From: Tubulanus polymorphus
Lineage: Eukaryota; Nemertea; Palaeonemertea; Tubulaniformes; Tubulanidae
Reading direction: 5' to 3'
NCBI RefSeq assembly: GCF_964204645.1
Contig: NC_134035.1
Location: 2,246,001-2,310,000, forward strand
Length of the DNA stretch: 64,000 nucleotides
Below the pieces are notes generated by a model. It was not told the origin of the DNA. It searched no databases and saw only the letters and a list, made by a program, of their open reading frames with translations. Below are positions 1-62,336 of this stretch, piece by piece (position 1 is the first letter of the stretch; each line of letters begins with the position of its first letter). The position numbers and the translations under genes are program-made.

Positions 1-532
1 AAGAAATCGTCAGGTACATTACATAAACCAAACTATCCCGTAAACTTAACCATACACTGTAAATATTTCATGTAGTTGAAAAGAAGGGAAATACAATGTT
101 TTTCACAAATACAGAGTTGCCAAATATTCCTGTCCTGTGATATTTCGTTATGATCTTGTCCTGAAAAATACTGGTTTAATTCTTTCGTCCGTCAGAAGTG
201 TGAAGGATGTTACTTCCAATTGGGGGTCTTACCCTTCCCCCTCTCATTTACTGATTATTTTGTTAAGAAATATGAAAGGTTTTGATTACTGATTAATTTG
301 AACAGAAATATAAAAGATGTTACTGAGGGTCTTGCCCCCTTGATTAGTAATTGATTTGAAAAGGAATATGAAAGGTTTTACAGAGGGTTTTACCCCCCTT
401 GATAACTGATTAATTTGTACAGAAATATGAAAGATGTTACTGAGGGTCTTACTTTTGATTACTGATTAATTTGAACATTTGCTTTTATTATCGACATGAA
501 ATTTCAGTTTAACTCCTTTCTTCAACTTACAG
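1..532. other. Intron or upstream flank of the zinc-finger gene
   Basis: No coding signal is seen here. From about 207 to 480 it holds roughly four diverged units of a repeat with the core ATTACTGATTAATTTGAACA followed by GAAATATGAAAGATG. The same unit forms a cleaner 56-bp array at 33.75-34.12 kb. The stretch ends in a pyrimidine-rich tract and AG at 531-532 that looks like a splice acceptor, so it is probably the 3' end of an intron whose upstream exons lie outside the window. Confidence 0.55.
207..480 (+). repeat. Diverged tandem repeat, about 56-60 bp unit
   Basis: About four imperfect units carry ACTGATTAATTTG, AAATATGAAAG and GAGGGTCTTAC in the same order each time. Units are interrupted by short C-tracts. 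The same family recurs in RP2 intron 1 at 33755-34120. Confidence 0.8.
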
Positions 533-3003
533 AAAAAACACCGACGAAAACTTCCCGACCGAAACGAGCGTTGACTCCATCTTCGTCGTCATCGAAGTTG
601 CCGTCTCATCCTGCGAAACGTACTAAACTCCAACTAACGGAGCGCCATCGATCTCCCGGTACTCCGTCGAGCGTCGACGAAACGACGCGGTCGACGTCTA
701 CTTCGAAGCACGACCGCCGTACGCGCGGTAAAATATTCGTGAATCCGTTCAAAAGCGATTTCACGCCAATAACCGGCCGTCGACGGACGTCGCCGCGCCG
801 GTCGGCTTCGACGAAGAAATCGCGCGTTCATCGATCGACGATTAAAACGACTTTGAAAAAACCGACACCGGAGAGAACGACTTCGCCGAGAAAACAGACG
901 GACACCGCCGACGACGACGAGCAGGTGGAAAACGCGACACGTAAATCGGGCGTATTGAAGAAGTATTACCAGTGCGGTTACTGCGAGCGCAGTTTCGTAC
1001 GCGTCGATCATCTGACGAGTCACGTTCAGAAACACATGGGCGAATCGAGTTACACTTGCGCCGATTGCGGTCGACCGTTCTACAGTTTGAGCACGTTACG
1101 CGCGCACGCTGTACGAGCTCACGAGACGTCCGCGCCCGACGCCGAGTCCGAGGGCGTTCGATCTCCGTCGTCGTCGTCGCGGAACGAGGTCAACGAAGCG
1201 AATGCGGCGAAAAGCGTTTCGCCGTCGAAGTTTAAAACGAATGGCAAGAAGAAAATATCGATGGCCGGATTGAAGAAATCGTTGAGCTCGACGTTGGAGC
1301 AGAAGCGTCGATTGATCATACCGTTGAAACGCGTAACATTACCGGCCGGCGACTTCACGGCGATCATCAAGCGACGAGAATTGAACGACGTGACTGCCGG
1401 GGGCAGCAAGGAGGCAAAGACGTCGAAGTCGCTGAAAGCGGTAGAAAACGATGATGCGGCAAAGAAGGACAAGACGCCATCAAAGTCACCTAAGGCGACA
1501 GTCGGCGATGATGGGAGAAATAAGCAAAAGACACCAATCGATGAGAAAAAGAAGGATGAGATGTTGAAGGCTCAGAAAGCAGCGGTGGACGATAATGAGA
1601 AAATGAAGAAGGCCGCAAAGGCACAGAAAGCAACGAAGGATGATGATGAGAAAAAGAAGGAAAAGATGTTGAAGTCACCGAAGGTAGCAGTAAACGATGA
1701 TGAGAAAAAGAAGGAAAAGATGTCAAAGTCATCGAAGGCAGCTGTGAACGATGATGAGAGAAAGAAGGAAAAGATGTCAAAGTCATCGAAGGCAACAGTG
1801 GATGATGATGAAAAAAAGAAGGAAAAGACATCAAAGTCACCGAAGGTAGCAGTAAACGATAATGAGAGAAAGAAGGAAAAGAGATTGAAGTCACCAAAGG
1901 CGGTAGAGGTCGATGATGAGAAAAAGAAGGAAAAGACATCAAAGTCAACAAAGGCAGCTGCGGACGATGATGAGAAGAAGGAAAAGACATCAAAGTCACC
2001 GAAGGCAGCTGCGGGCGATGATGAGAGAAAGAAGGAAAAGATGTCAAAGTCACCGAAGGCAGCTGTGGACGATGATGAGAAGAAGGAAAAGACATCAAAG
2101 TCACCGAAGGCAGCTGTGGACGATGATGAGAAAAAGAAGGAAAACACAAAGTCACCGATGGTGGTAGAGGATGATGATGACGAAATGATATTCGAAGAAC
2201 CGGCATCATCGGCCGTGGCGACTTCAACAATGAGTAGCATCAACGTCATCAAACGTCTGGCTGCGCGATCGGCTCGAAAACTCTCCGCGGCCGCCTTGAA
2301 AAAGAAGAAGAAGCATGATGACGCTGCGGTCGGCGGCGGCGACGACGATAAATCACCGATACGCTGCGACGATTGCGGCAAGATCTTCACGCATCGTTAC
2401 AAACTGCATTATCACATGGTCGTTCACACGGGCGAACGACCGCACGAGTGTCGCATCTGTCACAAGACGTTCGCGCGTAAGTCGTACGTGACGGCGCACG
2501 AACGCGTTCACTGGAAGGTGAAACGCCACACGTGTGCCAGCTGCGGCAAGCAGTTCGTCATGAAATCGACGTTGGTGAAACACGCGAAGTTTTGCCGCGC
2601 CAAACAACCTGGTTCGTCGTCCGGCGCTCCGTCGTCTGGCGGCGCCGTCGGTGAAACGACGATCATCGCGGCGACCGGAGAGGATTTATCGTTTGTCGTC
2701 GTGCCGGAGAATTTACCCTCCGCCGACGATAGCGACAAATCCGCTCACCAGGTGGCGGCGGCTTCCGCGACGGCTACTACTGCGATGTCCGGGATGGAAC
2801 AATTAGAAACGTTAGTCGAGCAAGTTAATCGCGGGGAAGGTCTAGAAGAGACGACGCAAACGACATCGACAGCGGTGAGTCACGAGTATAAATGCCAAGC
2901 GTGCGACCACGGTTACGACTCGTACAGCGCGTTGATTATGCATTTACGGCTACGCCACACGACGACCTTGATCAATCCGAAAAGCCATCAAACCGATCTG
3001 TAA
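533..3003 (+). CDS. C2H2 zinc-finger protein, terminal coding exon
   Basis: This is probably a nuclear DNA-binding protein. The frame is open from an ATG at 496 to TAA at 3001, 835 codons. A strong acceptor (pyrimidine tract, then AG at 531-532) suggests the real exon starts at 533 and the protein begins in an upstream exon. Numbering from the 496 ATG, fingers lie at C160/C163/H176/H180, C188/C191/H204/H209, C624/C627/H640/H644, C652/C655/H668/H672, C680/C683/H696/C700 (C2HC type) and C800/C803/H816/H821. A TGERP linker follows the third finger. Residues about 355-556 are a Lys/Asp/Ser repeat of 17-18 residues (DDEKKKEK.SKSPKAAV) encoded by a 51-54 bp minisatellite, so the fingers are split 2+3+1 around a highly charged spacer. 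The N-terminal part is basic, Ser/Thr/Arg-rich and likely disordered. I cannot assign an orthologue. Fingers are certain, the start is not. Confidence 0.85.
1560..2160 (+). repeat. Coding minisatellite, 51-54 bp unit
   Basis: About ten units encode a Lys-rich 17-18 residue repeat inside the zinc-finger protein. Unit lengths differ by multiples of three, so the frame stays open. The antisense strand is open too, which produces spurious reading frames. Confidence 0.85.
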
Positions 3004-4216: not shown

Positions 4217-7200
4217 ATGGCAACTCCACAAAACGGCGAAGAAAAAACGAAATCTCGTTGTCCAGAGGGTACGTATTGTGTTCTGATTTGCGTAGGAAGC
4301 AATTCAGACATTGTATCTAAGAGTTCAAAGTTGTTTTGATGGTCAGTTTTAATGTGAAATTACGGAAAATATCGAAATAATTCATCAGCTGATTGAACTA
4401 ATTACCGAAATTAAACAACGAATATCGTCTCTGACAGTGACAGCTGATCTCTTTGTGAAGAAACGGGCCCTATGTTTAATTAATTTCATTAAGTATGGAA
4501 CGTTAGCTGTAATGAACAGGTTCCCAGAAATTAAAATGGCTAAAAAATGCATAAACGAGAAATATTTCAATGAAATTCTTTAATTTCAGACACTGATTTT
4601 AAACAGCAACGATTACCAGCTTGGCAGCCGATATTAACAGCCGGTACGGTGTTACCGGCATTCTTCGCTATCGGTATCGCATTTATACCGCTAGGTGTCG
4701 CTTTATTCATCACTTCAAGCAATGTAAGTATCTCTCTACAGTAGACTCGGTGCTTTACTCAGTTATGTGTTGGGACTGTTTAGTTTTTTACTGGATTAAG
4801 AAATCATTTCCAAATGGATTTTAGGAAAATTTGTTGTTCTTTACGGTTAACCCTTTCAGTGCATCTATAAGGCAGTGCAGTGTATAAATCAGTGATTGAT
4901 TTTGCTAGTATACCGCACTGCGGTGTATTGGTGTAATTAGTAATTATCTCTTGAAAAACGGCAGCACCTGTCAAACATAGTGAAATACTAGTAACTAACG
5001 ATATACCGCGCCGTGGTGTAGACGCACTATAGTGGTATTCCCATTGTTCAACACACTAGGGTTGTATTTTAAAAAAAATTCAATTATCTCCAGCACTATT
5101 GGGTATTAATTAGTCGGCACTGAAAGGGTTAATGAGTTGACCGATACCGAGTCTATTTCTATCTACTGTGGGTTTTGCTCGTTAACTCTGAGAAATACTG
5201 AGTATCAGTCTCTCTACCGGTCACGAAATGAGTGAATCTATTTTCTGTTTTTCAGATTCAGGAGTTCTCGCTCGATTATACCGATTGCGTGAACGACAAT
5301 TCACCGGAAACGCCGAAAACGACGTGCGCGGCGTTCGTAGCCAATCCGAACAATACGAACAAATACGCATCGTGTAACTGTACGGAACAGTTCGAATTGA
5401 CGACCGATTTTCAGGTTAATATCCGCCTCTCCCTACTGCTCACCCCGAAAAATTGCCTTCCCCCTAGACAACTTACTATCTCCCCCTCCCTATTTTCATT
5501 GCCTCATCAAGATTGTAGTTCGTTTGTCAAATCAAAGGCGAAGTTTTAGAATTAGCAATTACCTGCAATAGTTAGCGATCTGTTCCTTTTTAGCGGATCA
5601 GGGTCCAGTTTTAGCTTAAAGCTTAAAACCGTTTGAAAGTTTGAATTGTTGGCGTCTTTGAAAACGTGAAATAACCAACAGCGAGTAAACCAAATACCTT
5701 AGAAACTGGACTCAGAGTAATCCAAATGTCTAAAATACACTAATTAGCTAAAGCAAGTGCCCTAGCCAAATTTATCGGAATTAGTTGTGACTATTTAGGG
5801 ACTGTTACTTTAAGCAGAAGATATTAAATGATGAAAATCTAAGAAAAAAATGGGGACAATTCCCTATCAGGGGAAGGTGCGCAATCATTTGTATATTCCA
5901 TGTGGTATGTGCATTTCAGGGGACGGTGTACATGTATTACAGTTTGAGTAATTTCTATCAGAATCATCGTCGTTACGTGAAGTCACGCGACGACCAACAA
6001 CTGATCGGCAATGAGATCGCCGCGGATAAATTAAACCGCGACTGCGACCCGTATCGGCTGAACGGTAACCAGGCGATCGCTCCGTGCGGCGCTATCGCTA
6101 ACAGCAAATTCAACGGTAAGTTCTCTACCGCCAGGGCTCGCATTGATGTCCCAAAATGGATGTCTGCTTAAGAAGATTTGTGAAAGATCATGAAAATGAC
6201 CGAATATTTTCAAGAAAAGTGAAATGTTATAAGGCCATGCCCCATTGGAAGAACGCGACAAATGTCCATTTTCATGATTGAGAATTTTTTTTCTAAAAAG
6301 TCTCGATCTTCTCAGTGATCTTCATACGCTGGGATTTTAGAGGGGTTGCTTTCATTCGTTAGTGCAATGAAATGTAGCGCGTTGTAAGCAATGATTGCTG
6401 TCCCTGTAACAATTTTCTACTGTTCCTCCTAATTCTTCAATTTTCCTTAATGTGTCCCTGGAAATTGTCTTTTTCTGTCCCAGATGCGGTAATTGATAAA
6501 GGTTGGCTCGTCTGTCATTTCGGATAGTATCTTTGCATTTACTGATTAAAAATTTGTTCCGTTGTTGTAATTTTTCAGATACGTTAAAGCTTCATTTAGA
6601 CAATAACGGCACGCTGGTACCGGTGAAACTACTGCGAACGGGAATCGCTTGGAGAACCGATAAAGAAGTGAAGTTTCGCAATCCGTCCGGTAATCTTACT
6701 GCCTGTACGTATCATCACTATATGTGTCATTCTTAGTCGACCTCTACAATTTGATTCCATTACCCATGGAGGGTAATTCCATTTTGTGAGGATTAGATTT
6801 AACCCTTTCAGTGCATCTACACCGCAGTGCGGTGTATAAATCAGTGATAGATTTTGCTAGTACACTGCACTGCGGACTATTGATGTAATCATTAATTAGT
6901 AATTATTTCTCTTGAAAAGGCAGCACCTGTCAAACATAGTGAAATACTAGTAACTAACGATTCACCGCACCGCGGTGTAGACGCACTAAAGTGGTATTCC
7001 GGTTATTCAACACACTAGGGTGGAATATTTTAAAATATTCAAATTATCTCCAGCACTGTAGGGTATTAATTAGTCGGCACTGATAGGGTTAACACCATTT
7101 GACAACTTGAGAAGATTCAAGACCACTTAAGACTTTTGGTCACACGTGTACAACTTTGTTCGATTGGCTAGAAGCTTAAATGGTCTTAGTTCTAAGCTTG

Positions 7201-14595: not shown

Positions 14596-16572
14596 TTACA
14601 ACTGGAGCGTCTCCTTGTCGAAGATGTACTCTCCGAGTCCGGTTCCGCCGCAACGTTTCAGCTGAGTGATGTAATCAGCGATCTGTTTCATCGACTCGAC
14701 TTGTTCGTTCAGGTATTCGTTCTCGATGAAATCGCACATCTGCAAAAAAGAAATAATTGATGATTCCTTAAAGTGATGATACATTTATCTTCGAATGCAT
14801 CCAAATCTGTTTTTAAAATGATTATTTTTCAATTTACGGTTAGCTTAGATTAGGACCAGCCTAAATTCATCAGAATTCTATAGCCTATTTAACAAATTAA
14901 GACCAGTCTAATTAAATTGTGCATTAAGAAAAGTCCAAATCTCTTTTCAAATCTATATGCCACCCAAAGTGAATGAAATCATAGGTGATCTTGGCCGTTT
15001 AAGAAAAACTGCATAACCTTGGCATGACTTTCAATAACTGAGTAACTAGGATTGATAAGGTTAAAGAATATGTCTCGTGATCTAATTAATGTTATCATTC
15101 AAACAATCATGGACAGGTTTATCGCAAGCTGAAGTTCAAGTGGAAATAAAACGACCAACCAGATATACCGCGGGGCGTGCCAAATTCAAAGATTAGGCCT
15201 AAGGGTTGGAACTATCAGCTGAAGAGGTCATCAAATTACCAAAAATAATTCCAAATGGGACAAAGATATGAATAATCTAGGATGTTTTATTGATTTTAAA
15301 CTTATGACGATGATGATCTTGACATAATTTTCCTGTCCTTCATTCTTCTTCACAATGAGAGAATTACTCGACAATTTGCCTATTAAACCCATGCCTCCTG
15401 CCCGAGTATTCCAAACAGTGGGTTGAGGAGAAAGTACACGACGAAGCTGATACTATTTGTATTTACCTGTGGATCGGTATGGTTGCTGGCAACCTTATGC
15501 AAGTCCAACAGACTCTGATTGACGCTCTTCTCGAGCGCGAGCGCCGCGTTCAAAGCGTCCAATCCACTTCCCCATTCATCGTGTTCGGGTTTCTGAAATG
15601 AAGACAATACGAAGATGCTGAGTAATCCTGCCCATAAGCCTAATTAACCTCAAGTTACTTCCAGTGGGTTGACCAGGGACTTATGAGACAAGTCCATCAA
15701 ATCTTTTGCGTGGCCTTTTTATGACATAAAAGAGGGATGTGACAAGTCATTCCTTATTGGTCTCTGGATCCACCCGAGGATGAGGACAGAGGTTTAATGA
15801 CTATTTCTCAAAATTGAAAGAGTTTCGGGAATTCTGTTCGAATTAAAGGAGTTTCAAGTGACTTTGAAAGCATTTTCCGTTCAAATAAAGAGTTTTTAAA
15901 GGAATTAAAGCACGAATAACTGAAGACTTACAGCGATTGGTTGAAGGACGACTCGACCTCCGCGCTGACTTTGAAATTTCATGAATTTCTCGGCGTGTTC
16001 GCGCTCTTCATCGGATTGGTGCTTGAAGAACTTCGAGAATCCCGGCAACGCGACATCATCACGATCGAAATAGTGAGACTGAAATAGCAAATACAAAAAC
16101 AACTTCTTAACTGCATTATTCCTATAACGACCAAAACGTACTTTAGAGAAATGAAGCTAGGTCTATAGCTCAAGGAAAATCTTTAGACATTATTTGCTAT
16201 TTCATTGTACATATCGCCTTCATGACTGAATTTCTGGGGCAGGCCCAGGACCCACCCCCTATTTTCCTTCAAGTTTGACCCCTCCCCAACTTGGGGCCCA
16301 AGTACAATATTGATGGGTCACTTTTGGGAGGGCCTTTACTCTTTAGAGATTGACTTCATTAGTACATGAATTAACAGACTCTGAATTGGGCACAGCAAAC
16401 CAAGTTAACAAGGTGGAAAAAAGATAATTCATGAATTGCGTCTTTCAATACTGACCATTGAATGATAGGTGTAGCTGGCATACAGTTCCATATTAATCTG
16501 TTTATTCACTCCGGCTTCGCATTCTTCGTGGTAATTCTGACGGCACGATACTGCTGCTGATGACTTAGACAT
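14596..16572 (-). CDS. Ferritin heavy-chain-type subunit, cytosolic
   Basis: Ferritin forms a 24-subunit shell that oxidises Fe(II) and stores it as mineral. Exons in transcript order: 16572-16456, 16078-15932, 15592-15467, 14739-14596. All are GT-AG, phase 0, giving 177 aa, against the usual 170-180. There is no signal peptide, so it should be cytosolic. All H-type ferroxidase ligands are present, each two above human H-ferritin numbering: E29, Y36, E64, H67, E109 and Q143. Conserved blocks include [48 protein letters not shown] and [19 protein letters not shown], ending [14 protein letters not shown]. An iron-responsive element in the 5' UTR and a TATA box are annotated separately. The neighbour RP2 is divergent, about 0.8 kb away. 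Confidence 0.97.
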
Positions 16573-23500: not shown

Positions 23501-26500
23501 GTACTTTGGACTGGTGAAAAAAAGGGAATTTGCTGCATGAAAATGCAAAAAAAGGCGTTAAGCCAATAAGGGATTCTGCCTCAGGAAATTTAGCAATTTT
23601 TCGGACTATTTCCCATGGCACTGAGAGACTTATAGAGAGTAACAGTTGGTGAAATGTGCCGTCAAAAGATGGTCAGCGAAATTTGGGATTCTAGACTGTA
23701 TTTGGGTCATACGGCTAATACATACAGGCCGGACACTGATATTCACTACGAATGACCCAGCGTTTCGTTGCGCCATCTGGTGGTGCCGATATCCCGTCGA
23801 GCGCAATCTGATAGCTTCCTCCTACGCAACGTTCAGTCATTTTGCGTATTATACCGCTCGGGATTAGCTCATTTCGAGATTATATATTTCTGTGTTCTGG
23901 TTTTATTGGTTTCGTTGTGGCGTGTTTACGTATTTATGAGCTTTATTACGTCTGGCTAATGTTGGCTGCTGGATGCAGAAAAAAACGGGCATCTATAACC
24001 ATCGGTGAAACACTAAATGTCGTAAAACGATAAATAGAAAATCCCGCACTAGATAAAGTTCGAAAAGTTTCCTTAACCCTTTCGGTGCCAGTACACCGCA
24101 GTGCAGGGTATATAAATCAGTGATAGATTTTGCCAGTACACCGCACTGCGGTGTATTTGTGATATTAGTAATTAGTAATTATCTCTCTTGAAAAATGGCA
24201 GCAACTTCAAACATAGTGAAATATTAGTAATTAACGATACACCGCACCGCGGTGTAGACGCATTATAGTGATATTCCTGTTATTCAACACACTAGGATGG
24301 AATTTTTTAAAATTTTCAAATTATCTCCAGCACTATAGGGTATAAATTAGTCAGCACTGAAAGGGTTCAAGCTAATGATTTATTACAAAAATTGTTTTAA
24401 CTATAACCTAATAGCCATCATCTAGAATACTGAGTGAAACAAAATATGAGATATGCCAAGGATCAAATCAAAAGCGGATCGCCCCACTATTTTAAGATAA
24501 CGTTTTCACAACCCGGCTTGAGAAAGTTACAATTATATGACAAGCTATTGCAGGTTATTTTCTTCTAGTTAGTCGAGACGCTTCGAAAATGATAAATTTT
24601 TTTCGGAATTTTCTCGGGCTGGACCCGTGACCTCAATAAAACTTAACCTACGTCTTACTGCGGATCAGTAATTACCGGTTAATATTTGGGACGTTGTCTT
24701 AATATTTCGATGAAACAATGCTGAAAATATTGTGGTGGAAGCGTGCCTGATGGTTAAGTTTGTTATGGTTGACTTGGCGCTATGAAATACCTGCAGCGCG
24801 TACCCTATGCAGGTATTTCGTCTGTGGAATAAATGATGCATCAATGATTGTATATTCCGGGGCGTAATAGAATAAATGGCAGTCAGGCTGTTACAGCGGT
24901 ACGGCCGGGTTCATAACGATGTGGTTTCCGGTGAGCGCTCGCGCCGGAGTCTAATTTCAAGACGATATATCGGGAAAAATAGTATGTCCAAGGGCGGATT
25001 TAAGGTTTGGTCTCGGGTCCAGACGCCTGCCTTCGCATTGAGGTGGCCCTTTACGTCAAAACAGATCGTTAGAATTTGTTAATTTGACATTCATCCTTTC
25101 GGAATCTGAACACTAAAGATGGTACTTGGCTAGTAGCCTGAGGATTGGACTCCTCCCATAGTCTATGAAAGTGCCATTTATTTTCTTAAGGCCTCAGCCT
25201 ACCAGTTGTTCAGGATCCGCCCCTTATGTTGGAGCAACTCCCAGACCAATTTCATTAGCCGCGTTCATGCTACCACTATTAGTTAAACAATGCTTAATTG
25301 GTCCGTGCTACCTGCAATGTACCAAATGTAGAAAGGACCAATTCAAAGTGCTCATCGTTCACACATTCGTTGTTGAATTTGCTACAGATAGTAGTTAATG
25401 CTCGGTGAAAAGCGGTCTTTTAGGTAGGTCCAAATTTGTCCCTTCCAAAAAATCAAACGACCTAATTTGGAACGAACTTTTCGCTAGCATGTGAGGTCCG
25501 TTCAAAATTCGAACAGGCCAAATAGATGTGAAAGTTTCAGCGTAAAGTAAAAAGTAAAACTGGAGTGGTAGTTCTGGAGGATATCGACCAGCGGAATCTA
25601 TTATCACCAGAGTGTTGGAGTAGATGATGCAGTGATACAGTTTGAGTATAACTGGAGTAGTAATTCTGGAGGATGTCGAATCAACGCTCTATTATCACCA
25701 GGGTGTTGGTCACACAGTGATGGACCGTCAGCTGCTGGAGGATATCGAATCAATGCTCTATTATCACCAGGGTGTTGGAGTATATCACACAGTGATAGAC
25801 AGTCAGCTGCTGGAGGATATCGAATCAACGCTCTATTATCACCAGGGTGTTGGAGTATATCACACAGTGATAGACAGTCAGCTGCTGGAGGATATCGAAT
25901 CAACGCTCTATTATCACCAGGGTGTTGGAGTATATCACACAGTGATAGACAGTCAGCTGCTGGAGGATATCGAATCAACGCTCTATTATCACCAGGGTGT
26001 TGGAGTATATCACACAGTGATAGACAGTCAGCTGCTGGAGGATATCGAATCAATGCTCTATTATCACCAGGGTGTTGGAGTATATCACACAGTGATAGAC
26101 AGTCAGCTGCTGGAGGATATCGAATCAACGCTCTATTATCACCAGGGTGTTGGAGTAGACAGTCAGCTGCTGGAGGATGTCGAATCAATGCTCTATTATC
26201 ACCAGGGTGTTGGAGTAGACAGTCAGCTGCTGGAACGATTCTCTGAAATAATAACCTTTAGTTGTTGTTCTAGTCGTTTTCATGAGTCATTAGTAATCGA
26301 AATAAATCGATTTTTTTCCGTAAAGCCTTCAGGATGTGGGTATCTTTGTGAAAACGTGCGCTCAACCAGGAATATCCATGATAGAAGATGATGACTTTGA
26401 TACAAGTCTGATTGAGTCTAAACGTCACTACTCTCTTGGTTTTGAATATGTCTTGTAGAAAGTTGAGTCTAAACGTCACTACTCTCTTGGTTTTGAATAT

Positions 26501-48751: not shown

Positions 48752-51700
48752 TCAAAACGGATGGCTTACAAACATGGCAATAGATATTAGCGAAATGATC
48801 AAGAAATTGAGAGGTTTAAGCAAACAATTGGCTCGACACGGAATAGTTTTTCGTCGCGGGGGAGAATTCATACACGCCGACTCACGGCGCCGATATCTGG
48901 GCGTCTGCGCGCAAATATCCGGTCCATCGTCTGTGACCGGTGAGGGTCCCGGCAATTCCACCTCGCAACTTTCCGCGCTATCTTCCGAGTCGCATATCTG
49001 ATCGGCTACGACCAACAATAAGTTACTTTTCTCGAGACTTTTTACTAGGAACCGTCTGGTACAATTTGTAAAGCAGTTGAATTCTCCGGACGCCTGACGA
49101 CCGGGCAGACTATCGAGATAACTCGTGTTGGCGTAGTAATACTCTCGTTTCATCGTGCAACTGATGTTTTTGATTTTGTCGTCCAACACCGATTCGTCGT
49201 CGGCGTCATCGGCACTGGCGTACGAGAGTAAATCTGATACCAATTCGAAAATCGTCGCGATGAAATACGTAGCGCTGAATCGAGGCGTCAACCAGTTGAA
49301 CAGATCGGTCAACGTCGGAATGTAAAACGACCGCGGACCCGACGCGCTGTTCTCATCGGTGATCACCGTACACGTGGCCTGATAGTCGTAATACGTCATC
49401 GAACCGATCAGCGACGTGTTATACATCCAATACGCGAGTTGCGGGTCGACGGTCGGGTCGCCGATAAAACGCCCCACTTCATAATCGGGTTGATTACTAG
49501 CGATCAGATATCCGGACTCGTCCAACAGATAACAAACCACGTCGATTTCCTTACATTCGTCCACAGTTTCGGCCAATCGATTGCGCAATTCGTCTTCAGT
49601 GATTTTCGCACCGACGACCGCTACTTTTACCTGATTGGACAGTTTTACCGATTTGGCCACCAACACGGTTCCGTTAAAGGGTACGGAATAATTCGACGGT
49701 TCGACCGGACGCACGCTGAACACGAAGCCGCCCTGGTTCTCATCCTCGTACATGAACGCCCTTTGGAAATAGGCGGCGTTCCAGACGTCGGCCCAGTCGA
49801 GAAACTCTGAACCCTCGTTCCAGGGAAATACAGCAGTCAGGCCGCCGTATGTACCGATAAATCGCGCTATGATACCGGCGCTGATCGCCTTCTCCGTCGT
49901 CTCCTCCCAATGAGTTTGCAGTTTAGTCGTCGACAAATCTAAAAGCACGTTGTTCAATATTTCGGACCCGTTAGCTCCGCCGCAAGTGCCGTTCGCATGC
50001 CGGTCCAATTCGTCTTTTAAAATATCCGCCGAATTCAAAACGTTGTTTTCGATCACGTCGGCTAAACCCGGGCAATAGTTCCAGGGCGCTAATAGCAGCA
50101 GAGACGAGCGGTTACCGTTCAGTTGGTTCATCGCCGCTGTTTTCCTATCGGCGGCAACTGGCTTCGAAACCTCGAGAAACTTCGTATGAGATTTCGGATT
50201 AACGACGCCGATACTGAACGGGGATCCAGCGATTCCAGCGTGCATATACGTACGCGCTTGTTTAGCGATATAGGCTCCATCAGTCGTACGAAAGAACCCG
50301 TCAAAATCGTCGCTACCCATCGATTTTTGATCGATCATTTTCTTTCTGATCGACGATTTCTGGCCGTTTTCGTCGTCGATTTCCACGTCCATGATGTCGA
50401 CGTTAGGAGGCACGCTGTCCGAGTCGACGGCGTCGTATTTCAGATGCGGATGCGACACTAGATATCCGTTCGTGTTGATGACGAACGAATATCCGTTCGG
50501 GCCGAGTTTTCTCAACGGCGTAAACTTCTGCATGTCTTTCGTTCGGAAGTCGATGCCCATCACGCCGATGATGGTTTGATTTTGAGAGCAGCCAGCCGCG
50601 CACGAATCGTTACTACCGCCGGCCAGACACCTCTCTCGACAACCATCGGTGTCAGTCGTGTCGTAAACGGGCAGAGTAACGGTGGTCGTCATTCCTAAAC
50701 CCTGCGCGTCGTTATACGGGTCCGTCCATTCGGCCTGTTTCGTCTGTACGGTATCTTTCTGCAAGATGTCGATATACTCTTGAACGGTCGTGCGTATTTC
50801 ACCCATGGCCGGAATCTGCGAGAAGAAGCCGTTTTTCGTGCACGCCATCCAACGTTTCACGACGGCCGATTTCGTCGGTAGACCGATAGCGTAAATGAAC
50901 ACGCGCACGTCCGTCGCGTCCCAGTCGTATTTTTTGAACACCTCTTCGGGAATATCGCGCGGGCTTTCGGTCAACATTACCATGACCTTGTTGCATTTGG
51001 CCCCGGCGGCGTGGTCAGCATATACGGAACTATTTCCCAGTTGCTCGAACTCTTTGTAACCGAAATCGAACGCTTTTTCGTAGCTGGCCATCTTCGAAGC
51101 GACGATTTCGTCGATTTCGTCGAAAAGTAGTTTCTTATTGCGATGGTTCGCGCGCACGAATGAATTCAGACACGACAGACCGACGGTTTCTTTAGAGAAT
51201 TTCGCCACCCGAATGTAGTCGTTTTCGCCCAGCGTGTTGATGATGGATTTGGCCGCCACTTTCAGCAACTGTAGAGGCTTACCGTGCACGCTGCCGCTGT
51301 GGTCGATCAGAATGAGCATATCTTTCGACGGACTGGAACCCAACGTGTACCACGGTCGGCGACGCACGTCGTACAGATCCACCGAATCCCCGTGCCACCT
51401 GCTTGCGGGGAGCGTACGCATAAACCCGACCCGACTGCCGAAATACTGCCACAACAAATCCGGGTCGTTCAGACGATTCTCGTGGAAGACTCGGTCTAAC
51501 CTGGCTGACCAAGTCAAACCGTTTTGAATATCCACATCACCACGGAACACTTCCACAGGGATGTGTACACTAGACGTGTCCGCTATGACGTTCTGTTCGA
51601 GGCGTTCGTCGTAAACGAAAACCGTCTCGTTATTTTCGGGGTCGTCTTCTTTCGCGTGGATATAGATAACATCTTGCATCGCCGGATCGGAGTTCCAAGT

Positions 51701-52048
51701 GTGATTTTTTGCTAGTTTTTCGGCTTCGAGTACCGACCTCTCCAGCGCTTTGACCTTCTTGTCTAAATCGTCGCGCAAACCACGCTCCATCGTCGCCAAC
51801 ACGTCCTTCAAGTCGACGTCGCCGAAATCCATCTCGCCTTTATCCTTCATCAGTTGGTATTCGGAAACGGCGATATCCGTGCCGATTATACTGTCCAACC
51901 AACTGGACAACTCGTTGTCGAACAAGTCCGCGAAATCTGGTTTAATCGACGGTAACGCGTCGACGGATTTCGGCGCGACCACCAATGAAACTAACATAAA
52001 TCCTCGTATGTAATTGTACAGTACATAGCTGGTACTGATGGACGCCAT
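48752..52048 (-). CDS. Voltage-gated calcium channel alpha-2/delta-like subunit, intronless
   Basis: Alpha-2/delta subunits are extracellular, GPI-anchored partners that raise surface delivery of Cav1/Cav2 channels. One 1098-codon frame carries the whole protein, near the usual 1000-1150. Order: short N-terminal hydrophobic segment (15-32), VWA_N region, RRRPWY block at 229-234 (the triple Arg of the gabapentin site in vertebrates), VWA domain (about 243-430), Cache-like region (about 492-600, IGVMGIDFRTKDM), Cys-rich C-terminal part, and a hydrophobic tail fitting GPI attachment. The MIDAS DxSxS is intact (D249, S251, S253). The position of the usual MIDAS Thr is A321, and the TDG aspartate is E361 (TES), so the metal site looks impaired. 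Family genes normally have dozens of exons, so an uninterrupted frame suggests a retrocopy. It has no stop or frameshift, so it is probably functional. Possible TATA-like TATATTTATA lies about 95 nt upstream. Confidence 0.92.
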   Translation of the reverse strand: MASISTSYVLYNYIRGFMLVSLVVAPKSVDALPSIKPDFADLFDNELSSWLDSIIGTDIAVSEYQLMKDKGEMDFGDVDLKDVLATMERGLRDDLDKKVKALERSVLEAEKLAKNHTWNSDPAMQDVIYIHAKEDDPENNETVFVYDERLEQNVIADTSSVHIPVEVFRGDVDIQNGLTWSARLDRVFHENRLNDPDLLWQYFGSRVGFMRTLPASRWHGDSVDLYDVRRRPWYTLGSSPSKDMLILIDHSGSVHGKPLQLLKVAAKSIINTLGENDYIRVAKFSKETVGLSCLNSFVRANHRNKKLLFDEIDEIVASKMASYEKAFDFGYKEFEQLGNSSVYADHAAGAKCNKVMVMLTESPRDIPEEVFKKYDWDATDVRVFIYAIGLPTKSAVVKRWMACTKNGFFSQIPAMGEIRTTVQEYIDILQKDTVQTKQAEWTDPYNDAQGLGMTTTVTLPVYDTTDTDGCRERCLAGGSNDSCAAGCSQNQTIIGVMGIDFRTKDMQKFTPLRKLGPNGYSFVINTNGYLVSHPHLKYDAVDSDSVPPNVDIMDVEIDDENGQKSSIRKKMIDQKSMGSDDFDGFFRTTDGAYIAKQARTYMHAGIAGSPFSIGVVNPKSHTKFLEVSKPVAADRKTAAMNQLNGNRSSLLLLAPWNYCPGLADVIENNVLNSADILKDELDRHANGTCGGANGSEILNNVLLDLSTTKLQTHWEETTEKAISAGIIARFIGTYGGLTAVFPWNEGSEFLDWADVWNAAYFQRAFMYEDENQGGFVFSVRPVEPSNYSVPFNGTVLVAKSVKLSNQVKVAVVGAKITEDELRNRLAETVDECKEIDVVCYLLDESGYLIASNQPDYEVGRFIGDPTVDPQLAYWMYNTSLIGSMTYYDYQATCTVITDENSASGPRSFYIPTLTDLFNWLTPRFSATYFIATIFELVSDLLSYASADDADDESVLDDKIKNISCTMKREYYYANTSYLDSLPGRQASGEFNCFTNCTRRFLVKSLEKSNLLLVVADQICDSEDSAESCEVELPGPSPVTDDGPDICAQTPRYRRRESACMNSPPRRKTIPCRANCLLKPLNFLIISLISIAMFVSHPF

Positions 52049-52560
52049 GATGCGCGAAGCAGAAGTAAGAGAAAGGCTTAGAGAGTTAGTTGCATACTAA
52101 GAGAATATATATCTAAGAATAGCCGATGTGCATCGGGTGCTATAAATATATCGCATCCCGCCAGACTGCGCAAACTGGAACAAGTCGGTTTCAGCATTAA
52201 ATATGCGGCACGTTTAGATCTTTCAAATCTAAGCTCATTTTGAAAACAAATTTCATCATCTTCAAACGCCAATCACTTAAATCAGACAATTAAACGCCGG
52301 ATTGCGAATATCGATTAAATAAATAAATAAATTCGCAAATAAAGTTATTTGGACAGTTGGATACAAAATCAAAACCTAATTTGTGGTGTTTTCGTATTTT
52401 CTATTTATCCCGAATGTTTGTAATGTGTAGATCTTAGGTGAAAAAATATTTCATCGTTACCGGCACCGGTGTATTTTTGCCAGAGGTCAATAAAGTTTCC
52501 ATTGAATTATATTTGAATGACCATCACGTGCTACCACCTATACTCAGTCTCTCGAACTAG

Positions 52561-53454: not shown

Positions 53455-54585
53455 ATGGCTTCACAGGTGCCCCCGGTATACAGCACTGGTGGCGCGGGTC
53501 ACGTGAACCAGATTTCACCTCAGCCACAAACGGTGATGATGTCGGCGGTGCCGCAGCAACCGATCGCGACGAGCAATCGCCGAGCAGACGGATCACGAAT
53601 CAGTTTCGCCCATCATTCGGCGCGATATTGCGGAATCATTCAAATCGTCTGCGGTTTCATCCTGTTGATCATCGGGATTTCGATGATTCCGTCACATGCG
53701 ATGTTCTACTTCATCGGTTACGGATTCTGGGGCAGCATTCTGTGCTTCATCGCTGGCGGGCTTGGGCTGCACGGTTCGAAAACGAAGAACAACTGCCCGA
53801 TAATCGGCACGATGGTAATGTCGATTTTCACGTGTTTGTTCGGTTTTGTGTTGTTCGGGTTTTCAGCAGCTGGAATTCCGCTTGACGAGCATCAAAGAAG
53901 ATGCTTGAGAATGAACATGAATATGGAATTTGATTATTCGTACCGCTGCTATGGGCCCGCCAAGCCCGCGGACTCAATTGACCAAGTCAACTTCAGAGTA
54001 GCGTGCCACTCGATCAATTTGCTCGTCGGAATTGTTTTGATGGTCGTACCGATCGTTCAGTCGTGTGTGAGCTGTCAGGCAATTTGCTGCCCGACGACAG
54101 ACGCGTGTTTCCCACAGCAGACGACGACGCTGGTCTACGGGATGCATCCTCAACAACAGCCGATCGTCTACGTGATGCAACAACAACGTGGTGCATATAC
54201 TACACAACCCGGTCAGATCGTGTACGGTCAGCCTTTACAAGTTTACGGTCAACCTACTGCAAATCAGCCGCCGGGGTACGGTCAGCCCGCTGCGAATCAG
54301 CCGCTGGGATACGGTCAGCCCGCTGCGAATCAGCCGCCGGGGTACGGTCAGCCCGCTGCGAATCAGCTGCCGGGGGACGGTCTGCCCGCTGCGAATCAGC
54401 CGCTGGGGTACGGTCAGCCCGCCGTCACTACTCAATTGCCCTACAGTCAGCCCTCGGCTGTACAACCGTCTTATGGGCAGCCTACAGTAGCACCAGCGCC
54501 ACCTACTGGAGCCAGTGACGTCATGCCCGGAATTCACGGTCTGCCAAGCTACAACGAAGCTGTTACCGGAGTGAAATCTAATTGA
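53455..54585 (+). CDS. CD20/MS4A-like four-pass membrane protein, gene A
   Basis: 376 aa, entire coding region in one exon. The exon opens at the acceptor 53425-53427, 27 nt before the ATG. Four hydrophobic segments at about 59-79, 86-107, 114-139 and 182-204 have the MS4A layout: QIVCGFILLIIGI, then GYGFWGSILCFIAGG and KTKNNCPIIG. A short outer loop (140-181) holds C150 and C165, which could form a disulfide. Cysteines after TM4 (SCVSCQAICC) suit palmitoylation. The cytoplasmic tail is Gln/Pro/Tyr-rich with five or six 11-residue GYGQPAANQPP-type repeats and ends PSYNEAV, close to a PY (WW-binding) motif. By family knowledge these proteins modulate membrane signalling or ion flux, but the function here is unknown. 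First of a tandem array with B and C. A 3' UTR of hairpin repeats follows. Confidence 0.85.
   Translation: MASQVPPVYSTGGAGHVNQISPQPQTVMMSAVPQQPIATSNRRADGSRISFAHHSARYCGIIQIVCGFILLIIGISMIPSHAMFYFIGYGFWGSILCFIAGGLGLHGSKTKNNCPIIGTMVMSIFTCLFGFVLFGFSAAGIPLDEHQRRCLRMNMNMEFDYSYRCYGPAKPADSIDQVNFRVACHSINLLVGIVLMVVPIVQSCVSCQAICCPTTDACFPQQTTTLVYGMHPQQQPIVYVMQQQRGAYTTQPGQIVYGQPLQVYGQPTANQPPGYGQPAANQPLGYGQPAANQPPGYGQPAANQLPGDGLPAANQPLGYGQPAVTTQLPYSQPSAVQPSYGQPTVAPAPPTGASDVMPGIHGLPSYNEAVTGVKSN
54253..54420 (+). repeat. 33-bp coding repeat in gene A tail
   Basis: Five or six units of TACGGTCAGCCCGCTGCGAA plus TCAGCCGCCGGGG encode GYGQPAANQPP. Paralogs B and C keep one or two units. One unit in A is degenerate (GDGLP). 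Confidence 0.85.
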
Positions 54586-59132: not shown

Positions 59133-60044
59133 ATGGCTTCGCAGATGTCCCCGGTATACAGCGCTGGTGGCGCGGGTCACGTGAAAATGATTTCACCTCA
59201 ACCACAAACTGTGGTTAATAAGTCGGCCGTGCCGCAGCAACTGGTCGCGACGAGCAATCGTCGAGCAGACGGATCACGAATCGGTTTCGCTGATCGATCG
59301 GTGGGATATTGCGGACACATTCAAATCGTCTGCGGTTTCATCCTCATTTTAAACTGGATTTTGATGATGAGGTCGAGTGCGATGTTCGCCAAAATCAGTT
59401 ACGGATTCTGGGGCAGCATTCTGTGTTTCGTCGCTGGTGGACTTTGCGTGCTCGGCGCGAAGTTGAAGAACAACTGCCTGATAATCGGCGCGATGGTCGT
59501 GTCGATCTTCACGTGTTTGTTTGGTTTCGTGTTGGTCGGGTTTTCGGTGGCTGGAATCCCGATCGATGAGCAGCAAAGAAGATGCTTGGAAGAAAGTGTG
59601 CAGATGAAATTCAATCCACCCACCTGCGACACGGCTATGCCCGCACGCTCGATCAGCCAAGTCAACTTCAGAATAGCGTGTCACGTGGGCAATATACTCG
59701 TCGGAATTGTTTTGATGGTCGTACCGATCGTCCAGTCGTGTTTTAGCTGCCGGGCGATTTGCTGCCCGAGGTCAGACGCGTATATCCTTCAACAGCCGAT
59801 CGTCTACATGAAGCAGCAACCGACTACACATCCCGGTCAGATCGCGTACGGTCAGCATTTACAAGTTTACGGTCAACCTACAGCAAACCAGCCGCCGGGG
59901 TACGGTCAGCCTGCCGCCACTACACAAGTGCCCGGAATTCACGGTCTGCCCAGTTACAACGAAGCTATTACCGAAGTAAAATCAGTTGGTTCTCGATGTT
60001 TACAATTGATAAAAACTCGAGGTGTTGTGATGGTGGTATCATAA
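59133..60044 (+). CDS. CD20/MS4A-like four-pass membrane protein, gene B
   Basis: 303 aa, coding region in one exon opening at the acceptor 59106-59108. Collinear with genes A and C through four membrane segments (about 60-80, 87-108, 115-140, 182-205), with the same GYGFWGSILCFVAGG and KLKNNC motifs, but more substituted (N-W-I in TM1, changed outer loop). The tail is shorter: a deletion removes the HPQQQ-type segment, only one or two GYGQP units remain, and it reaches PSYNEAITEVKS. There A and C stop within two residues. B has lost that stop and continues 19 residues into sequence homologous to the 3' UTR of A. The extension adds one cysteine and is hydrophobic at the end. Substitutions and extension suggest the least constrained paralog, but the frame is intact. 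Confidence 0.82.
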   Translation: MASQMSPVYSAGGAGHVKMISPQPQTVVNKSAVPQQLVATSNRRADGSRIGFADRSVGYCGHIQIVCGFILILNWILMMRSSAMFAKISYGFWGSILCFVAGGLCVLGAKLKNNCLIIGAMVVSIFTCLFGFVLVGFSVAGIPIDEQQRRCLEESVQMKFNPPTCDTAMPARSISQVNFRIACHVGNILVGIVLMVVPIVQSCFSCRAICCPRSDAYILQQPIVYMKQQPTTHPGQIAYGQHLQVYGQPTANQPPGYGQPAATTQVPGIHGLPSYNEAITEVKSVGSRCLQLIKTRGVVMVVS

Positions 60045-61352: not shown

Positions 61353-62336
61353 ATGGCTTCGCAGATGTCCCCGGTATACTGCGCTGGTGGCGGCGGCCAC
61401 GTAACACTGAATTCGCCTCAACCACAAACGGTGATGATGTCGACGGTGCCGCAGCAACCGATCGCGACGAGCAATCGCCGAGCAGACGGATCACGAATCA
61501 GTTTCGCTGATCGATGGGCGCGATATTGCGGAATCATTCAGATCGTCTGCGGTTTCATCCTGTTGATCATCGGGATTTTGACGATCTCGTCGGGTGCGAT
61601 ATTCCACTTCATCGGTTACGGATTCTGGGGCAGCATTCTGTGCTTCGTCGCCGGCGGGCTCGGTCTGCACGGTTCGAAAACGAAGAACAACTGCCCGATA
61701 ATCGGCACGATGGTCATGTCGATTTTCACAGGCGTGTTGGGTTTCGTGTTGGTCGGGATTTCGGCGGCTGGAATCGCGTTAGACGAGCGTCAAAGAAGAT
61801 GCATTAAGATACACGCGCAGATGGAATTCAAATATCTCAACTGCTACACGCTGGCCGAGCCCACGGACTCGATCGACCGAGTCAACTTCAGAATAGCGTG
61901 TCACTCGATCAATTTGCTCGTCGGAATCGTTTTGATGGTCGTACCGATCGTTCAGTCGTGTGTGAGCTGTCACGCGATTTGCTGCCCGACGCCAGACCCG
62001 CTTATCTCGTCACAAACGACGACACTGGTCTACGGAATGCATCCTCAACAACAGCCGATTGTCTACCTGAAGCAACAACAGACCCAACCCGGTCAGATCA
62101 TATACGGTCAGCCTTTACAAGTTTACGGTCAACCTACAGCAAATCAGCCGCCGGGGTACGGTCAGCCTGCCGTCACTACTCAATTGCCCTACGGTCAGCC
62201 CTCGACAGTACATCCGTCATATGTGCAGCCTACAGTACCACCAGCGCCACATACTGGAGCCGACGACGCCATACCCGGGATTCACGGGCTGCCAAGCTAC
62301 AACGAAGCTGTCACCGAAGTAAAATCTAATTATTAG
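61353..62336 (+). CDS. CD20/MS4A-like four-pass membrane protein, gene C
   Basis: 327 aa, one coding exon opening at the acceptor 61321-61323. It is closest to gene A: TM1 is nearly identical (RYCGIIQIVCGFILLIIGI), as are GYGFWGSILCFVAGGLGLHG, KTKNNCPIIGTMVMSIFTG and the TM4 block ACHSINLLVGIVLMVVPIVQ. The outer loop has C-x(n)-C (RRCIKIH ... LNCYTLA). The tail keeps YGMHPQQQPIVY and YGQPLQVYGQPTANQPP but lacks the expanded 11-residue array of A, and ends PSYNEAVTEVKSNY. Its 3' UTR has one clear hairpin unit (about 62360-62400). Probable role as for A. Promoter is unclear. Confidence 0.85.
   Translation: MASQMSPVYCAGGGGHVTLNSPQPQTVMMSTVPQQPIATSNRRADGSRISFADRWARYCGIIQIVCGFILLIIGILTISSGAIFHFIGYGFWGSILCFVAGGLGLHGSKTKNNCPIIGTMVMSIFTGVLGFVLVGISAAGIALDERQRRCIKIHAQMEFKYLNCYTLAEPTDSIDRVNFRIACHSINLLVGIVLMVVPIVQSCVSCHAICCPTPDPLISSQTTTLVYGMHPQQQPIVYLKQQQTQPGQIIYGQPLQVYGQPTANQPPGYGQPAVTTQLPYGQPSTVHPSYVQPTVPPAPHTGADDAIPGIHGLPSYNEAVTEVKSNY

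Follow-up and report, generated by a model that had tools for sequence, protein, structure and literature searches.

The MIDAS ligands published for alpha-2/delta-1 are D259, S261, S263, T331 and D363 (PMC6231325), the fourth and fifth being T333 and D365 in rabbit numbering (PMC5655503), and the VWA and cache1 regions of this protein face the channel (PMC5655503; PMC9901441). The motif which binds amino acids and gabapentin consists of YxxxxRxWY plus Y and D (PMC9901441). In vertebrate alpha-2/delta-3 and -4, a non-polar residue stands at one of the MIDAS positions (PMC6231325), and a MIDAS made of D, S, S, A and D was reported for UNC-36 and for the orthologue of the nematode D. destructor (PMC9657823). 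A perfect five-residue MIDAS is not needed for family membership, since alpha-2/delta-3 and -4 are without one of the residues; alpha-2/delta-3 loses its action on CaV2.2 when the channel carries D122A, a mutation of the MIDAS partner, just as alpha-2/delta-1 does (PMC6231325).

The window analyzed here, a stretch of 64,000 nucleotides of the Tubulanus polymorphus genome (C11:2246001-2310000; searched genome, 267.8 Mb), contains an intronless coding sequence of this family (48752..52048, C11:2294752-2298048, on the minus strand, as are all the features of this gene given below). In line with what a sequence-only reading had proposed, the frame is complete, with 1098 codons from ATG to stop and neither internal stop nor intron. 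As judged from open reading frame, Pfam and phmmer results, the 1098-residue product is a full-length alpha-2/delta protein, an additional member of a well-known family. It matched human and rabbit alpha-2/delta-1 across residues 19-1087 (phmmer, E 5.7e-144 for the human protein), a full-length similarity to solved alpha-2/delta, and its domains follow in the order VWA_N, VWA, dCache and VGCC_alpha2. These are VWA_N (PF08399, residues 109-218, 51395..51724, E 4.6e-26), the opening part of the first dCache domain; VWA (residues 243-419, 50792..51322, E 2.8e-7); dCache_1 (E 3.8e-10, with 40.2 bits, below Pfam's own 45-bit cut-off); and VGCC_alpha2 (PF08473, residues 649-1071, 48836..50104, E 1.4e-51), covering the last section of alpha-2 together with delta. 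Of the family traits of raising CaV1/CaV2 currents, cleavage into alpha-2 and delta, and GPI anchoring, the sequence shows a hydrophobic stretch at the C terminus. A TATA-like sequence (52139..52148), a consensus match only, precedes the ATG by about 100 bases and is a possible, weak candidate for the gene's own promoter.

The amino-acid-binding motif YxxxxRxWY ... Y ... D is complete in the alignment. Its core, the RRRPWY block already pointed out in the sequence-only reading, lies at residues 229-234 (51347..51364; motif from PMC9901441), and D500 (codon 50549..50551), equivalent to Asp491 of alpha-2/delta-1 and part of the second half of the motif, is kept. The pocket position occupied by Ala217 in alpha-2/delta-1 is Phe in alpha-2/delta-3 and -4, which impedes gabapentin, and Met in the window gene, which may accordingly bind gabapentin more weakly.

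In this genome the alpha-2/delta genes are split except for the one in the window, in agreement with the earlier suggestion that the family is normally rich in introns. When the window protein was searched against its own genome, collinear short matches were found at C3:6.04-6.05 Mb, and spliced alignment delineated there a paralog of about 34 exons (C3:6038696-6052761, hereafter C3a) which spans query residues 19-1095, in a gene model whose last exon boundaries are uncertain and which contains one stop where segments close to the C terminus were misjoined. Identity between the two copies reached 551 of 1050 aligned residues (52.5%). The first exon of C3a starts MASSIRTVRTECLIFTGLISIVL... and aligns with MASISTSYVLYNYIRGFMLVSLV... 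of the window gene, the N-terminal starts of the pair being similar (MASSIRTV... versus MASISTSY...). The other split members are C3b (C3:19.31-19.34 Mb), an alpha-2/delta-3/4-like paralog with Phe in the ligand pocket, like alpha-2/delta-3 and -4 themselves; the CACHD1-like C2b (E 2.8e-69 to CACHD1); and C4, C2a and C1. The last three are diverged VWA-cache genes related to alpha-2/delta, with C4 and C2a as sisters, and their DxSxS variants include DCSIS and DGSFS.

A core tree of nine sequences, used in place of trees built from five or six longer sequences, placed the window gene and C3a as sisters (bootstrap 89, SH-aLRT 94). This sister relation has moderate support. Human alpha-2/delta-1 adjoined the pair, C3b fell outside, and CACHD1 and C2b formed a separate branch; the branch of the window gene was longer than that of C3a (0.61 vs. 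0.13). In the longer-sequence trees, the order of the window gene, C3a, the human protein and C3b was not clearly resolved: AU tests on these sequences disfavored a grouping of the window gene with human alpha-2/delta-1 (p 0.027) and did not exclude one of C3a with the human protein (p 0.21). A CACHD1 identity for the window gene was ruled out by its intact DxSxS and its separate branch from CACHD1 in the tree.

The codons of the window gene and C3a differ at 36% of first, 29% of second and 65% of third positions, and 157 of the 215 comparable fourfold sites differ (73%), which corresponds to saturation; dN amounts to 0.42, and no dS or numerical dN/dS is given because the silent sites are saturated. 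In neutral simulations the frame remained open in none of 500 runs, even at 0.1 substitutions per site. Moreover, of the 107 sites at which human alpha-2/delta-1, C3a and C3b all agree, the window gene retains 88. Taken together, the open frame, the saturated silent sites and the dN indicate long purifying selection on the coding sequence. That the gene could be a recent or decaying copy without function is accordingly extremely improbable: the 1098-codon frame stayed open while silent sites became saturated, the shared sites were kept, and the codon-position pattern contradicts such a history unless function was lost very recently.

Base composition also separates the two copies. GC at fourfold sites was 0.69 in the window gene vs. 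0.33 in C3a, with 0.34-0.38 in the flanks, and GC3 was 0.63 vs. 0.37. The GC of functional mammalian retrogenes shifts in the same direction (PMC7181179). All five long intronless frames of the window had a GC3 of 0.58-0.63 vs. 0.34-0.46 in the intron-bearing genes of the alpha-2/delta family, for which intron absence, location or expression may be the cause. High GC was nevertheless downgraded as a proof of retrogene status and is a weak argument by itself, because a multi-exon ferritin-like gene of the window also has a GC3 of 0.60. The pieces of this putative gene (14599-16572, minus strand) were recognized by eye from translated segments. The window further contains a C2H2 zinc-finger protein of 835 residues in a single frame (496-3003, plus strand), a tandem repeat with a repeated peptide unit, readable without stops in several frames of either strand (about 25600-26390), and a dispersed repeat near 5000 (minus), 20530 (plus), 24150 (minus) and 36850 (plus), the copies of which encode variants of one peptide. 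Beside the alpha-2/delta gene lie three tandem single-frame CD20/MS4A-like genes (53455-54585, 59133-60044 and 61353-62336, all on the plus strand; Pfam PF04103, E 8.8e-10 to 2e-7) with very similar N termini.

An old functional retrocopy, as suggested by the sequence-only reading, is the best and a well-supported interpretation of this gene, because a multi-exon paralog exists elsewhere in the genome, the family is split, the two copies are sisters in the core tree and the frame is open despite saturated silent sites. An mRNA from the usual alpha-2/delta gene of C3, the one rich in introns, would have undergone reverse transcription in the distant past and been integrated into contig C11; there the copy would have acquired its own expression, and purifying selection would have maintained it as the genome's second such subunit. 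We regard this scenario, from retroposition to retention, as likely. Against it, the AU test leaves C3a free to group with the human protein. The usual traces are also lacking: neither a poly-A tract nor a target-site duplication was found at the window gene, and its flanks showed no clear homology with the C3a UTRs, so that retroposition is argued from the missing introns and the location. Erosion of such marks is expected at this age, and their absence counts little against a retrogene. The same absence of poly-A tract and duplication would suit another history, in which the gene arose by duplication at the DNA level, or is itself the original locus, and lost all its introns in place through cDNA-mediated recombination. 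This history is quite improbable, as about 33 introns would need to be removed, the window gene lies on a different contig from C3a with no shared flanking sequence found, and cDNA conversion would require a prior DNA duplicate at C11.

The MIDAS of the presumed retrocopy was said to keep DxSxS and to have substituted ligands at its two last positions. The positions were correctly assigned: D249, S251, S253, A321 and E361 align to the ligands of human alpha-2/delta-1, with A321 and E361 facing T331 and D363 and no gaps nearby. The DxSxS (D249-H-S251-G-S253, 51290..51304) is intact. The reading of them as substitutions has to be narrowed to one of the two, and this one is mild. The A321 codon (GCC, 51086..51088) occupies the fourth position, and the MIDAS of C3a reads D, S, S, A, D, while C3b has Ala and Asp at the fourth and fifth positions. 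Because Ala is shared by C3a, C3b, UNC-36 and D. destructor, and because alpha-2/delta-3 still depends on D122, A321 is most simply read as ancestral and compatible with function; an Ala at this position is nothing unusual in alpha-2/delta proteins other than the alpha-2/delta-1/-2 class and does not signal a loss of function. By contrast, E361 (codon GAA, 50966..50968) is the sole MIDAS change particular to the window gene, with LTDSG in C3a becoming LTESP, and the Asp is retained by all intron-bearing family members of the genome except the CACHD1-like one. The perfect five-residue MIDAS of the alpha-2/delta-1/-2 class is thus absent, D, S and S being kept along with A321 and E361. The change is conservative in charge and Glu can still provide a carboxylate; a loss of metal-dependent binding is no more than possible.

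Change along the protein was also unevenly distributed. For each copy, sites were counted at which it departs from human alpha-2/delta-1 and the other copy matches the human residue. Residues 243-640, which comprise the VWA domain and the latter half of the first dCache, had 47 such changes in the window gene and 20 in C3a, vs. 36 and 42 outside (Fisher p 0.004, for segments picked after seeing the data and with one distant outgroup sequence behind the test). Because this excess falls in the region that faces the channel in alpha-2/delta-1, an altered surface for channel binding is plausible. The AlphaFold prediction of the full protein without alignment had a mean pLDDT of 33 and no structural reading was taken from it.

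From a mechanistic point of view, the retrocopy would most likely enter the secretory pathway, bind a small amino acid in its first dCache domain and associate with CaV alpha-1, its MIDAS comprising D249, S251 and S253, the ancestral Ala321, and a Glu where the last Asp would be. That the gene is expressed, and that its product reaches the surface and binds CaV, is what we infer, and so would be any weakened contact across the metal bridge. The gene could instead encode a MIDAS-independent alpha-2/delta, either using other channel contact surfaces as a CACHD1-like protein or competing with the ordinary subunit. The specificity of D361E to the window gene and the enrichment of its changes in residues 243-640 are in line with this, but DxSxS is fully intact, in contrast with the DHGAS of CACHD1, the Glu carboxylate remains, functional members of the family tolerate an Ala for the Thr, and the enrichment depends on segments chosen post hoc and a single distant outgroup, so that we consider such independence unlikely. 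A fuller version, in which the retroposed subunit diverged specifically at the surface that binds the channel and works on CaV channels or another partner without a metal bridge while amino-acid sensing is kept, is unlikely; if true, it would make this gene a natural, evolved counterpart of MIDAS mutants. With C3 retroposition as the preferred reading, the putative parent and its copy form a natural pair differing at one MIDAS ligand, with the amino-acid pocket unchanged.

Compared with known systems, the window gene resembles vertebrate alpha-2/delta-1 and -2 (CACNA2D1/2) in its order of VWA_N, VWA, dCache and VGCC_alpha2, its RRR motif, its amino-acid-binding residues and its DxSxS. It differs from human alpha-2/delta-1 by a core identity of about 41%, the absence of introns, an Ala instead of T331, a Glu instead of D363, and Met at the Ala217 pocket position, as also found in C3a. 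With C3a it shares 52.5% identity across almost its full length, the similar start, the MIDAS Ala, the pocket Met and a cysteine-containing insert preceding the dCache strand, whereas C3a has its roughly 34 exons, the MIDAS Asp, the lower GC3 and the shorter branch. Like alpha-2/delta-3, alpha-2/delta-4 and UNC-36, it has one non-polar MIDAS ligand (Ala in UNC-36 and D. destructor), but UNC-36 retains the last Asp where the window gene has Glu, and alpha-2/delta-3 and -4 combine RNR with a pocket Phe where the window gene combines RRR with Met. CACHD1 is likewise an alpha-2/delta-like protein with an imperfect MIDAS, and it still acts on CaV2.2; unlike the window gene, it has lost the DxSxS itself and stands on a separate branch of the tree.
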